From the NCBI RefSeq assembly GCF_030817535.1, contig NZ_JAUSZL010000002.1, forward strand, positions 1,674,001 through 1,738,000: a stretch of 64,000 bases of DNA, written 5' to 3'. This DNA comes from Streptomyces sp. V3I8 (GTDB lineage: Bacteria; Actinomycetota; Actinomycetes; Streptomycetales; Streptomycetaceae). The position numbers were made by a program, and so were the translations under genes. Positions 7,956 through 12,599 of the stretch are shown piece by piece; positions within the stretch are counted from its first letter, which is position 1, and each line of letters begins with the position of its first letter. The notes under the pieces were generated by a model. It searched no databases. It was not told the DNA's origin and worked only from the letters and a program-made list of their open reading frames with translations.

Positions 7956-7990
7956 GGAGCACCATGCAGAATCTGAGGAACGCAGCATGA
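7952..7990 (+). other. 12-codon bridging ORF
   Basis: A 12-codon frame (MRSTMQNLRNAA) whose ATG overlaps the reductase stop (ATGA at 7952-7955) and whose TGA overlaps the start of the dehydrogenase gene (ATGA at 7987-7990). It holds AGGAG and GAGGAAC ribosome-site-like runs. It may simply carry the downstream ribosome site, or may keep ribosomes loaded between the two genes. Confidence 0.35.
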
Positions 7991-9912
7991 GGAAGCGAGA
8001 CCGAACCCCCAGGACGTACAAGCGGCTTCAGTATCCGCTGGTCCGCGACTCCCGTGACGAGCCCTTCCGGCGCGCCGGCTGGGACGAGGCCCTGGACCGG
8101 GTCGCCCGGGGCCTCGGCGCGGCGCGCGGCGCGTTCGGCCTGTTCTCCTGCGCCCGCGCGACCAACGAGATGAACTACGTGGCGCAGAAGTTCGCCCGCG
8201 TGGTCATGGGCACCAACAACGTCGACTCCTGCAACCGCACCTGTCACGCGCCCAGCGTGGCGGGCCTGTCCGCGGCCTTCGGCTCGGGCGGCGGCACCTC
8301 CTCGTACGCCGAGGTCGAGCACACCGACCTCGTCGTCATGTGGGGCTCCAACGCCCGCTTCGCGCACCCGATCTTCTTCCAGCACGTCCTGAAGGGGATC
8401 AGGAACGGCGCCCGGATGTACGCGGTCGACCCGCGCCGCACCTCCACGGCCGAGTGGGCCGAGAGCTGGCTCGGGCTGAACGTCGGCACGGACATCCCGA
8501 TGGCGCACGCGATCGGCCGGGAGATCATCCGGGCGGGACTCGCGAACGAGGCGTTCGTCGAGCGGGCCACCACCGGCTTCGAGGAGTACAAGCAGCTCGT
8601 CGAGCCGTGGACGCTGTCCCTCGCGGAGAAGGTGACGGGCGTACCGGCCGCCGCGATACGGGACCTGGCGCACGCCTACGCCCGCGCCGAGCGCGCCCAG
8701 CTGTGCTGGACACTCGGCATCACCGAGCACCACAACGGCACGGACAACGTCCGCGCGCTCATCAACCTCTCCCTCCTGACGGGCCATGTCGGGCGCTTCG
8801 GCTCGGGGCTGCAGCCCCTGCGCGGGCAGAACAACGTGCAGGGCGGCGGCGACATGGGCGCCATCCCGAACCGGCTGCCCGGCTTCCAGGACATCCTCGA
8901 CCCGGGCACCCGGCTGAAGTTCGAGTCCGCGTGGGACACCGTCATCCAGCCGCACCACGGGCTGAACCTGACGGAGATGTTCGAGGCCATGGAGGAGGGC
9001 ACGCTCAAGGCCGTCTACTGCATCGGGGAGAACCCGGCGCAGTCGGAGGCCGACAGCGGACAGGCCGTACGCCGTCTGGGGGAGCTCGACTTCCTCGTCG
9101 TCCAGGACATCTTCCTGACAAAGACCGCCGAGCTGGCGGACGTCGTCCTGCCCGCGACCGCCGGCTGGGCCGAGACCGAGGGCACGACGACCAACAGCGA
9201 GCGGCGTGTTCAGCGGGTGCGCCGGGCGGTCACCCCGCCCGGTGAGGCCCGCGAGGACATCGACATCCTCTGCGACCTGGCCTCCCGCCTCGGCCACGAG
9301 TGGAAGTACGCGGACTCCGAGGCCGTCTGGAACGAGCTGCGGTCGGTGTCCCCGGACCACTACGGCATGACGTACGAGCGGCTGGCGGAGCACCAGGGCA
9401 TCCAGTGGCCCTGCCCGCAGACGGACCGGATCGAACCGACCTACCTGCACGGCAGGCTGTGGGAGTCCGATCCGGCCGCCCGGGGCCGTCCCGCGCCCTT
9501 CGGACTCGTCCAGCACGACCCGCCCGTCGACCTGACGGACGAGGAGTACCCGATCCGGCTGACCACCGGGCGGCGGCTCGACTCCTACAACACCGGGGTG
9601 CAGAGCGGCAGTTTCGCCTCGCCGCTGCGGCGCGGCGAGTTCGTCGAGCTGTGCCCGGAGGACGCGGAGCGCTACGGCGTGACGGTCGGCGAGCAGGTAC
9701 AGGTCTCCTCGCGGCGCGGCTCGGTGACGGCCCCGGTGTGGGTCGACACCGCGCTGCGGCCCGGCCTCGCGTTCATGACCATGCACTTTCCCGACGAGGT
9801 GGACACCAACCAGCTGACGATCGAGGCGAACTGCCCGATCGCGGGGACGGCGGAGTTCAAGGCGTCGGCGATCCGGATCGAAAAACTGCCGGTCGCTCTT
9901 CAAGTGAGGTGA
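7987..9912 (+). CDS. Formate dehydrogenase catalytic fragment (molybdopterin oxidoreductase lacking its N-terminal Fe-S domain)
   Basis: 641 residues. It holds the molybdopterin domains of an FdhF/FdsA-type alpha subunit: NNVDSCNRTCHAPS with C86-H87 where E. coli FdhF has selenocysteine-His, the RFGSGLQPLRGQNNVQGGGDMG loop region, VYCIGENPAQSEAD, FLVVQDIFLTKTAELADVVLPA, and a C-terminal dinucleotide-binding domain from about 515 (RLTTGRRLDSYNTG). The usual N-terminal CxxCxxxC...C cluster domain is absent; that piece is found at the end of the protein encoded at 11739-12599. It would bind bis-MGD and oxidise formate to CO2 in the cytoplasm. ATGA coupling to a 12-codon ORF precedes it and the diaphorase gene follows six bases later. 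Confidence 0.9.
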   Translation: MRKRDRTPRTYKRLQYPLVRDSRDEPFRRAGWDEALDRVARGLGAARGAFGLFSCARATNEMNYVAQKFARVVMGTNNVDSCNRTCHAPSVAGLSAAFGSGGGTSSYAEVEHTDLVVMWGSNARFAHPIFFQHVLKGIRNGARMYAVDPRRTSTAEWAESWLGLNVGTDIPMAHAIGREIIRAGLANEAFVERATTGFEEYKQLVEPWTLSLAEKVTGVPAAAIRDLAHAYARAERAQLCWTLGITEHHNGTDNVRALINLSLLTGHVGRFGSGLQPLRGQNNVQGGGDMGAIPNRLPGFQDILDPGTRLKFESAWDTVIQPHHGLNLTEMFEAMEEGTLKAVYCIGENPAQSEADSGQAVRRLGELDFLVVQDIFLTKTAELADVVLPATAGWAETEGTTTNSERRVQRVRRAVTPPGEAREDIDILCDLASRLGHEWKYADSEAVWNELRSVSPDHYGMTYERLAEHQGIQWPCPQTDRIEPTYLHGRLWESDPAARGRPAPFGLVQHDPPVDLTDEEYPIRLTTGRRLDSYNTGVQSGSFASPLRRGEFVELCPEDAERYGVTVGEQVQVSSRRGSVTAPVWVDTALRPGLAFMTMHFPDEVDTNQLTIEANCPIAGTAEFKASAIRIEKLPVALQVR

Positions 9913-11742: not shown

Positions 11743-12599
11743 CCGTGACAACGCTGGGGATCCCCCGCCGACTGCTGGAGTTCACCCTCGACGGTGAGCC
11801 CGTGCGGGCACCGGAGGGCACGACGCTCCTCGACGCCTGCCGGTCGGCGGGCAAGGACGTCCCGACCCTGTGCCAGGGCGACACCCTGACCCCGAAGAAC
11901 GCCTGCCGGGTGTGCGTGGTCGAGGTGGAGGGCGCGCGCACCCTGGTCCCGGCCTGCTCCCGCAAGGCCGAGGCGGGCATGGAGGTGCGCACGGACACCG
12001 AGCGGACCCGGCACAGCCGCAAGGTCGTCCTGGAGCTCCTCGCGTCCTCCGTCGACCTCTCCACCACCCCGGAGGTGGCCGGCTGGCTGAAGGAGTACGA
12101 GGCGAAGCCCGACCGCTTCGGCCCCGACGCGGCCCGCGTCGACGAGGAGCCGAGGGTCGACAACGACCTCTACGTGCGGGACTACGGCAAATGCATCCTC
12201 TGCTACAAGTGCGTGGACGCCTGCGGCGACCAGTGGCAGAACAGCTTCGCCATCTCGGTCACCGGACGTGGTTTCGACGCCCGCATCGCCGTCGAGCACG
12301 ACGGGCCGCTCACCGAATCGGCGTGCGTGTACTGCGGCAACTGCATCGAGGTGTGCCCGACGGGTGCGCTTTCGTTCAAATCGGAGTTCGACATGCGTGC
12401 GGCGGGTACGTGGGACGAGTCGGCGCAGACCGGGACCACCACGGTGTGCGCCTACTGCGGAGTGGGCTGCAACCTCACCCTGCACGTACAGGACAATGAG
12501 ATCGTCAAGGTCACCTCACCGCACGACAACCCGGTGACCCACGGCAACCTCTGCATCAAGGGCCGCTTCGGCTACCAGCACGTACAGAACCGGGACTGA
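11739..12599 (+). CDS. Formate dehydrogenase N-terminal Fe-S fragment (FdsA N-terminus)
   Basis: 286 residues carrying four cluster sites in the order of an FdsA/NuoG N-terminus: [2Fe-2S] C45, C56, C59, C73; [4Fe-4S] C152, C155, C158, C162; [4Fe-4S] C196, C199, C202, C206; then, at the very C-terminus, the molybdopterin-enzyme cluster C237, C240, C244 and C272 (CAYCGVGC ... NLCIKGRFG). This last domain is normally continuous with the catalytic domain, so this protein and the 641-residue protein at 7987-9912 together equal one alpha subunit. It would wire the active site to the diaphorase. ATG overlaps the preceding stop; fdhD follows after seven bases. Confidence 0.92.
   Translation: MTVTTLGIPRRLLEFTLDGEPVRAPEGTTLLDACRSAGKDVPTLCQGDTLTPKNACRVCVVEVEGARTLVPACSRKAEAGMEVRTDTERTRHSRKVVLELLASSVDLSTTPEVAGWLKEYEAKPDRFGPDAARVDEEPRVDNDLYVRDYGKCILCYKCVDACGDQWQNSFAISVTGRGFDARIAVEHDGPLTESACVYCGNCIEVCPTGALSFKSEFDMRAAGTWDESAQTGTTTVCAYCGVGCNLTLHVQDNEIVKVTSPHDNPVTHGNLCIKGRFGYQHVQNRD

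Follow-up and report, generated by a model that had tools for sequence, protein, structure and literature searches.

Formate dehydrogenases (FDHs) such as FDH-H of Escherichia coli and the FdsA-type enzymes hold their Fe4S4 domain and their molybdenum site in one chain. In the alpha subunit of the FdsA type, NuoG-like clusters, the Fe4S4 domain, and the domains that bind the bis-molybdopterin guanine dinucleotide (bis-MGD) cofactor are all combined in that single chain, whose N-terminal extension carries three [4Fe-4S] clusters and one [2Fe-2S] cluster according to PMC8808070. Here, we analyzed a locus of Streptomyces sp. V3I8 with another layout, located in a stretch of 64,000 nucleotides (contig NZ_JAUSZL010000002.1, positions 1,674,001 to 1,738,000 of the forward strand), hereafter the window, in whose coordinates all positions are given. 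In this locus, the parts of an FDH alpha subunit are found in two open reading frames (ORFs) with a third one between them: a catalytic bis-MGD-binding chain of 641 amino acids (aa) without N-terminal Fe4S4 domain (hereafter A, 7987..9912), a fused NuoE-NuoF-like, NAD-reducing (diaphorase) subunit of 607 aa (EF, 9919..11742), and an iron–sulfur protein of 286 aa that corresponds to two stretches of FdsA, the HoxU/NuoG-like N-terminal region and the Fe4S4 domain (N, 11739..12599). These genes are followed by fdhD, which encodes the FDH accessory sulfurtransferase (12607..13470; NF001943 and TIGR00129, both above their cut-offs). All four lie on the + strand in the order A, EF, N, fdhD, and the ATG of N overlaps the TGA stop of EF (11739 vs. 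11742). Judging from sequence, we consider it highly probable that this operon encodes a soluble, NAD-dependent molybdenum (or tungsten) FDH made of the three chains A, EF, and N and matured by FdhD, in which the cluster of the Fe4S4 domain (FS0) would be supplied in trans, and which is a cysteine form nested among selenocysteine (Sec) forms.

An alpha subunit distributed over two conserved genes

With regard to domain content, a Pfam search matched PF00384 and PF01568 in A and left PF04879 unmatched there; N contains Fer2_4 and a Fer4 dicluster region and ends with PF04879, and EF carries PF01257, PF01512, SLBB, and PF10589. The two halves tile one FDH alpha subunit: residues 235–286 of N cover positions 1–52 of the FDH alpha profile TIGR01591 and residues 12–631 of A cover positions 52–672, and residues 25–307 of FdsA (6tg9_A) are matched by N and residues 308–931 by A, the pieces meeting at 307/308. 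PF00384 is complete in A (profile positions 1–352 of 353), which implies that the molybdopterin domain, as Pfam defines it, is uncut and that the break falls at the PF04879/PF00384 border, not inside the first molybdopterin domain, where an earlier note made from the sequence alone had placed it. The other structural observations of that note hold: Pfam and TIGR01591 agree that the 641-aa chain lacks the N-terminal cluster domain and that this very domain ends the 286-aa protein, and the ORFs and Pfam bear out the NuoE-NuoF fusion between them, with fdhD behind. On their own, both halves stay below the curated TIGR01591 cut-off of 666.25 bits (616.2 for A and 54.4 for N), and their score sum of 670.6 bits is not the curated test; L218, a single-chain FDH of the sister group described below, reaches 784.5 bits, above the FDH cut-off. 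Finally, the folds predicted for A and N, as single chains, superpose on two parts of FdsA and of MeFDH1.

At the level of residues, codon 86 of A (TGT, 8242..8244) encodes the predicted catalytic cysteine, followed by His87 and, further downstream, by R279-G280-Q281. These five positions are invariant in the 44 rows of the A alignment, U being read as C, and across 121 rows including the query, codon 86 is Cys in 100 and TGA in 21. A Cys or Sec ligand with an adjacent His and an RGQ motif is given as a signature of class I FDHs in PMC8808070. In N, 16 cysteines are kept in 108/108 rows, query included (a count that applies to all N residues named below): C45, C56, C59, and C73 are the probable ligands of a [2Fe-2S] cluster in the Fer2_4 region (11871..11957), and C152, C155, C158, C162, C196, C199, C202, and C206 would form two [4Fe-4S] sites (12192..12356). 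The last four, C237, C240, C244, and C272, belong together with the equally retained K274 (NLCIKGRFG) to the PF04879 domain for FS0 (12441..12596). The catalytic C86 and the FS0 cysteines are thus placed as the earlier note said, and the FdsA-like [2Fe-2S] and two [4Fe-4S] sites that it read in N are upheld by the invariant cysteines. Sixteen such residues imply four clusters, one [4Fe-4S] fewer than in FdsA: in the alignment, the CLTC..C stretch of FdsA has no counterpart in N, whose cysteines suffice, besides FS0, for two [4Fe-4S] and one [2Fe-2S]. On the basis of the predicted folds, and of the constraint and joint decay presented below, it is most likely that one active site is assembled from the two chains A and N, as the same note had proposed.

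The arrangement is not peculiar to one strain. A genome scan gave 459 relatives, the best 80 of which were kept as a first set and completed with 40 loci from further genomes (120 loci). A, EF, N, and fdhD follow each other on one strand in 71 of the best 80, the contig ending in or before EF in the other 9; S. violaceoruber NRRL S-981 (L034) is one of the strains in which the locus occurs. Over the 120 loci, A, EF, and N are all present in 107, the remaining 13 being cut by contig ends, and a homologue search for the same gene order, such as the earlier note had suggested, returned A before EF before N in 107/107 complete loci. Since these come from separate assemblies, the split is not an assembly error, and the sequencing error or rearrangement once named as a possible refutation is excluded: the observed split is confirmed as real and conserved. 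The 120 best-scoring database matches include N-like proteins (262–323 aa) from Streptomyces, Nonomuraea, Herbidospora, Thermopolyspora, Sphaerisporangium, Streptosporangium, Acrocarpospora, Amycolatopsis, and Actinomadura. Among the matches listed, they are mostly named "2Fe-2S iron-sulfur cluster-binding protein", one Ilumatobacter copy being annotated as "NAD-dependent formate dehydrogenase iron-sulfur protein".

Selenocysteine forms and the origin of the arrangement

A feature missed by the earlier note is the existence of selenocysteine forms of this enzyme and of a Sec-to-Cys change. Relatives of A in other families of the phylum are 60–67% identical to it and contain one in-frame TGA in 34 of the 35 listed, the alignment of the 35th beginning past codon 86. 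When loci of these other families were fetched (L193–L212), TGA at codon 86 and the order A–EF–N were found in 20/20, including L193, which corresponds to Ilumatobacter fluminis (N piece 100% identical), of the class Acidimicrobiia. The loop of the Sec insertion sequence (SECIS) of E. coli fdhF is GGUCUG. At codons 93–94, starting 21 bases from the T of the TGA, GGTCTG is present in 28/28 TGA genes (21 split and 7 short ones, picked for having TGA) vs. 11/99 Cys forms; the loop of the split TGA genes is SECIS-like. Besides, among genomes that carry split TGA forms and lie outside the class of Streptomyces, 13/13 searched showed a tRNA-Sec of at least 60 bits (cut-off 47). The query gene itself has TGT and GGCCTG, and the best tRNA-Sec of its genome scores 44.9 bits, below the same cut-off; the features of a selenoprotein FDH are therefore absent from it. 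These observations suggest that a selenium-containing form of the split FDH is encoded in Acidimicrobiia.

We then inferred a tree of A from 71 of 160 A sequences. The split forms make up one clade of 39 rows with a support of 100/100 (rows L145 and L146 end before N), whose sister group, again with 100/100, consists of seven short Sec FDHs that keep the Fe4S4 domain in line, the long forms branching outside. Within this clade, the Cys forms of Streptomyces and its kin are nested in Sec forms (100/98 with three rows of family f69, I. fluminis included). This placement assigns the catalytic chain to the short Sec type rather than to an offshoot of FdsA and implies that Sec was later replaced by Cys; a single origin is likely as well, since the split forms are one clade within the phylum. 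Accounting for the locus as an FdsA-type subunit split in two, as the earlier note did, is hence not supported as history, A being sister to the short Sec FDHs and outside the long forms, and A may rather be a short FdhF-type chain that lost its own Fe4S4 domain.

As for gene order, 20 looser relatives were fetched for comparison: EF precedes N and A in one frame in 11 of them, N and A in one frame precede EF in 5 (the open frames of these 16 being 937–1535 aa long), 3 are without N and EF, and 1 (L166) shows a frame change. The order A–EF–N is formally a rotation of both fused orders seen in these relatives, and to this extent the "circular permutation" of the earlier note stands; the duplication remnant that might accompany such an event was not found. 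Indeed, hidden Markov models (HMMs) of the Fe4S4 domain and of the A N-terminus were searched in three-frame translations of up to 3 kb 5′ of A (120 loci, at least 300 nt each) and 3′ of N (107 loci), and no convincing Fe4S4 match was obtained there (best E 0.15), when the same Fe4S4 HMM detects the domain in 7/7 short-FDH loci at E < 1e-24. The matches of the A N-terminus HMM 5′ of A (best E 2e-5) were discarded, as they correspond to 60 nt of A inside the searched stretch. With no duplication remnant, circular permutation stays a description.

L166 (genome G572) was also considered as a second split and rejected, for its frame change lies in a long FDH and is of a different kind. Around positions 7900–8300 of this locus, RGHACVKGRFAHGF is encoded by two copies of one segment, each in a different frame, so that the reading frame changes between the Fe4S4 part and the molybdopterin part; this repeated segment would be either a local duplication or an assembly fault.

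Constraint, joint decay, and competing explanations

Evolutionary rates were measured over 71 Streptomyces loci (990 pairs from 45 of them). The ratio of nonsynonymous to synonymous rates (dN/dS) is 0.127 for both A and EF and, along N, 0.134 for residues 2–110, 0.090 for residues 111–232, and 0.013 for residues 233–286. Purifying selection thus acts on all three genes, and the Fe4S4 domain of N is the most constrained stretch measured, which argues that this off-chain cluster domain is in use. In this regard, an explanation that we hold to be very unlikely is that A works without FS0, like DorA-type enzymes, the Fe4S4 domain of N being a leftover or a separate ferredoxin-like domain with no contact to A. 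It is true that A holds complete PF00384 and PF01568 domains and that, according to PMC10100899, the N-terminal cluster is missing in some members of the superfamily. However, a dispensable domain fits poorly with the strongest constraint of the locus and with four cysteines and K274 retained in every row, the sister short FDHs have their Fe4S4 domain in line before A in 7/7 loci, and the A/N junction is exact both on the profile and on FdsA.

As a separate observation, heterozygosity at 4-fold sites of N in the 71 loci is 0.36–0.40 over residues 5–232, 0.28 over residues 233–260, and 0.103 over residues 261–285 (10 sites). Synonymous diversity is therefore low in codons 261–285 (12519–12593), just 5′ of fdhD, which may point to a constraint at the nucleotide level.

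It could also be proposed that the A–EF–N complex acts on a substrate other than formate, or as a CO2 reductase, in line with the failure of either half to exceed the TIGR01591 cut-off alone and with its neighbors, a monocarboxylate-type transporter and a PanE-like gene. The latter (PanE/ApbA-like; PF02558 and PF08546), located 5′ of A on the + strand and possibly in the same operon (6984..7955, start approximate), has a match in 79/80 first-set loci and 19/40 added loci, and in the four first-set loci where its position was checked, it is just upstream of A. Nonetheless, this proposal appears distinctly improbable, as the C/U-H and RGQ residues are invariant in the 44 rows, Sec and fdhD are typical of FDHs, and the single-chain sister L218 does exceed the FDH cut-off. 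The transporter, of the OFA/lactate type and the major facilitator superfamily, is found on the other strand with a GntR/FCD regulator and a FabH-like protein (3235–6936). The regulator, the FabH-like protein, and the transporter are matched in 72, 71, and 77 of the 80 first-set loci and in 15, 0, and 0 of the 40 added ones, respectively. A link to oxalate suggested by this transporter beside the operon was dismissed, the best oxalyl-CoA decarboxylase match in the genome scoring 249 bits for a cut-off of 739.4.

The joint fate of A and N was followed in 150 Streptomyces genomes, searched at E <= 1e-150 for A and E <= 1e-60 for N. A was found in 52, N in 56, and both in 51 of them. The genome with A only (G139) and one with N only (G001, where A is present) are contig-edge cases, and the four other N-only genomes carry deletions, N being broken in 4/4: in G140, A is internally deleted, EF is nearly gone, and N has a frameshifted stretch without C56 and C59; in G081, A is gone, EF is truncated, and N shows C152R and C202R; in G124, A is gone, EF is truncated, and N has a nonsense codon; in G022, A and EF are both gone, and N is truncated with C155R. 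In these four genomes, fdhD is 86–89% identical and without stops. No intact N without A was hence encountered among the 150 genomes, which speaks against EF and N acting as a common diaphorase for some further enzyme, with A as one client. HoxU/NuoE/NuoF-type modules do serve hydrogenases, complex I, and FDHs, as family matches indicate; yet A, EF, and N occur together in all 107 complete loci, and the four PF04879 copies of the V3I8 genome include a single off-chain one, that of N, which makes such sharing very improbable. Lastly, the idea that the split reflects faulty sequencing or assembly, or two pseudogenes of this strain, for which only its oddity pleads, is already refuted by the recurrence of the split in every complete locus and by the purifying selection on the three genes.

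Seven other PF00384 proteins are encoded in the V3I8 genome: a NasC-like protein, NuoG, a BisC-like protein, two FdhF/YdeP-like proteins, and two without assignment (Pfam was run on three of the seven). None is above the FDH-alpha cut-off among their listed matches, and apart from NuoG of complex I, no other gene of FdsA layout was found in this genome. Each PF04879 copy other than that of N is joined to a molybdopterin domain. In the same genome, L003 (contig C2, around 2333065) is a molybdopterin protein of 873 aa with no listed PF04879 match and a score below the FDH-alpha cut-off.

Several points weigh against a three-chain FDH of Sec ancestry with FS0 in trans. First, given the low synonymous diversity at the 3′ end of N, a constraint on DNA or RNA may account for some of the low dN there. 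Second, EF is damaged or missing alongside A in all four decayed loci, so that N may have decayed because EF or expression was lost, and not because A was; moreover, in 5/51 genomes (G028, G050, G112, G119, G120), A and N are matched on different contigs, and their adjacency is thus not visible. Third, a tree built only from the Fe4S4 domain (61 columns) does not resolve its origin, and the pairwise scores of this domain overlap (57–67 bits to short forms, 43–64 to long forms, three long ones being at 29–35). Fourth, the minimum free energy of folding, taken alone, separates Sec from Cys stretches weakly (mean z -1.18 vs. -0.53; L031, a Cys row without the required motif, is excluded here and included in the GGTCTG count). 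Fifth, in G171, a genome that is 80% complete and belongs to the class of Streptomyces, a TGA form (L145) is accompanied by a best tRNA-Sec of 45.4 bits, below the cut-off; L145 may lie on a contig assigned to the wrong bin or belong to a genuine user of Sec; conversely, G272, with a Cys form (L129), has a tRNA-Sec (L240) of 70.2 bits and may use Sec elsewhere. Sixth, fdhD lies within the fetched stretch in 5 of the 20 TGA-type loci L193–L212, downstream in L201 and upstream in L198, L199, L203, and L204. Finally, the two FdhF/YdeP-like proteins might also oxidize formate in this strain, formate oxidation being known for a Corynebacterium homologue.

Proposed mechanism and comparison with known systems

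Under the three-chain FDH reading, which we retain, formate would be oxidized at the bis-MGD site of A (Cys86/His87/Arg279), and the electrons would exit through the FS0 [4Fe-4S] cluster of the C-terminal domain of N, docked on A in trans. They would then pass through the dicluster and other clusters of N to the NuoEF-like chain, where the clusters of EF and then FMN would reduce NAD+. EF matches HydB/HoxF/NuoF/FdsB chains in the PDB and its sole cluster domains are one NADH_4Fe-4S domain and the [2Fe-2S] domain of NuoE, with no extra ferredoxin-type domains. According to PMC9304861, the absence of the extra clusters B2–B5 in BfuB homologues marks non-bifurcating forms, and no ferredoxin step is accordingly expected for EF. 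A more elaborate version of this scenario, about which we are evenly divided, is that of a lineage of single origin in which FS0 and its lysine always come in trans from the electron-transfer chain, FdhD could act on A while it is still an open shell, with N closing it afterwards, and an original Sec gave way to Cys in Streptomyces and its kin or on the way to them. In particular, if the active site is complete only once N docks, A could receive bis-MGD and undergo FdhD sulfuration free of clusters.

Such an arrangement would be of use beyond this locus. A separate N offers a ready way to probe the role of FS0 and of the lysine, by omitting N and adding it back, and the split opens to study the delivery of bis-MGD and the access of FdhD to the active site, as well as the possibility of connecting a CO2/formate enzyme to other electron partners via the small chain alone. 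Selenium and sulfur as ligands can further be compared in a natural setting, since the same split enzyme occurs in a Sec and a Cys version. In addition, a split FDH is easily overlooked, as N is mostly named generically and as, according to PMC10100899, the TGA of Sec is usually read as a stop in genome annotation.

Compared with the FdsABG-type FDHs of Rhodobacter capsulatus (6TG9) and Methylorubrum extorquens (FDH1, 7VW6/8J83), the present system has the same HoxU-like region, Fe4S4 domain, bis-MGD domains, and NuoE/NuoF-type diaphorase. However, the Fe4S4 domain and the molybdenum site, which share one chain in the matched solved structures (FdsA, MeFDH1), are separate here, the alpha subunit being one chain there and two here, N has one [4Fe-4S] cluster fewer, and A is nearer to short FDHs than to the long forms of the phylum. 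With the short Sec FDHs (L213–L219, family f58; E. coli FDH-H), the resemblance is of another order: L213–L219 are 50–53% identical to A (best local alignment) and agree with the split Sec forms in the positions of the TGA codon and of GGTCTG, but their Fe4S4 domain is in line, and their fetched flanks match only the Fe4S4 part of N and are without EF match. A molybdopterin catalytic unit extending over two chains is also known in formylmethanofuran dehydrogenase (FwdB/FwdD), where, in contrast, the separate chain is the C-terminal dinucleotide-binding domain and not Fe4S4. The literature searched gave no recognizable account of an FDH with its sole FS0 domain on another chain, a 2016 paper on recoded-Sec FDHs of actinomycetes lying outside its coverage. 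Among this literature, the electron-bifurcating Fdh-Bfu of Gottschalkia acidurici, whose Fdh subunit has its own Fe4S4 domain, is the nearest published analogue. As described in PMC9304861, the pterin subunit is likewise separate from a NuoG-like protein, BfuA, with clusters A1–A5, the difference being that BfuB has the extra clusters B2–B5 that EF lacks.

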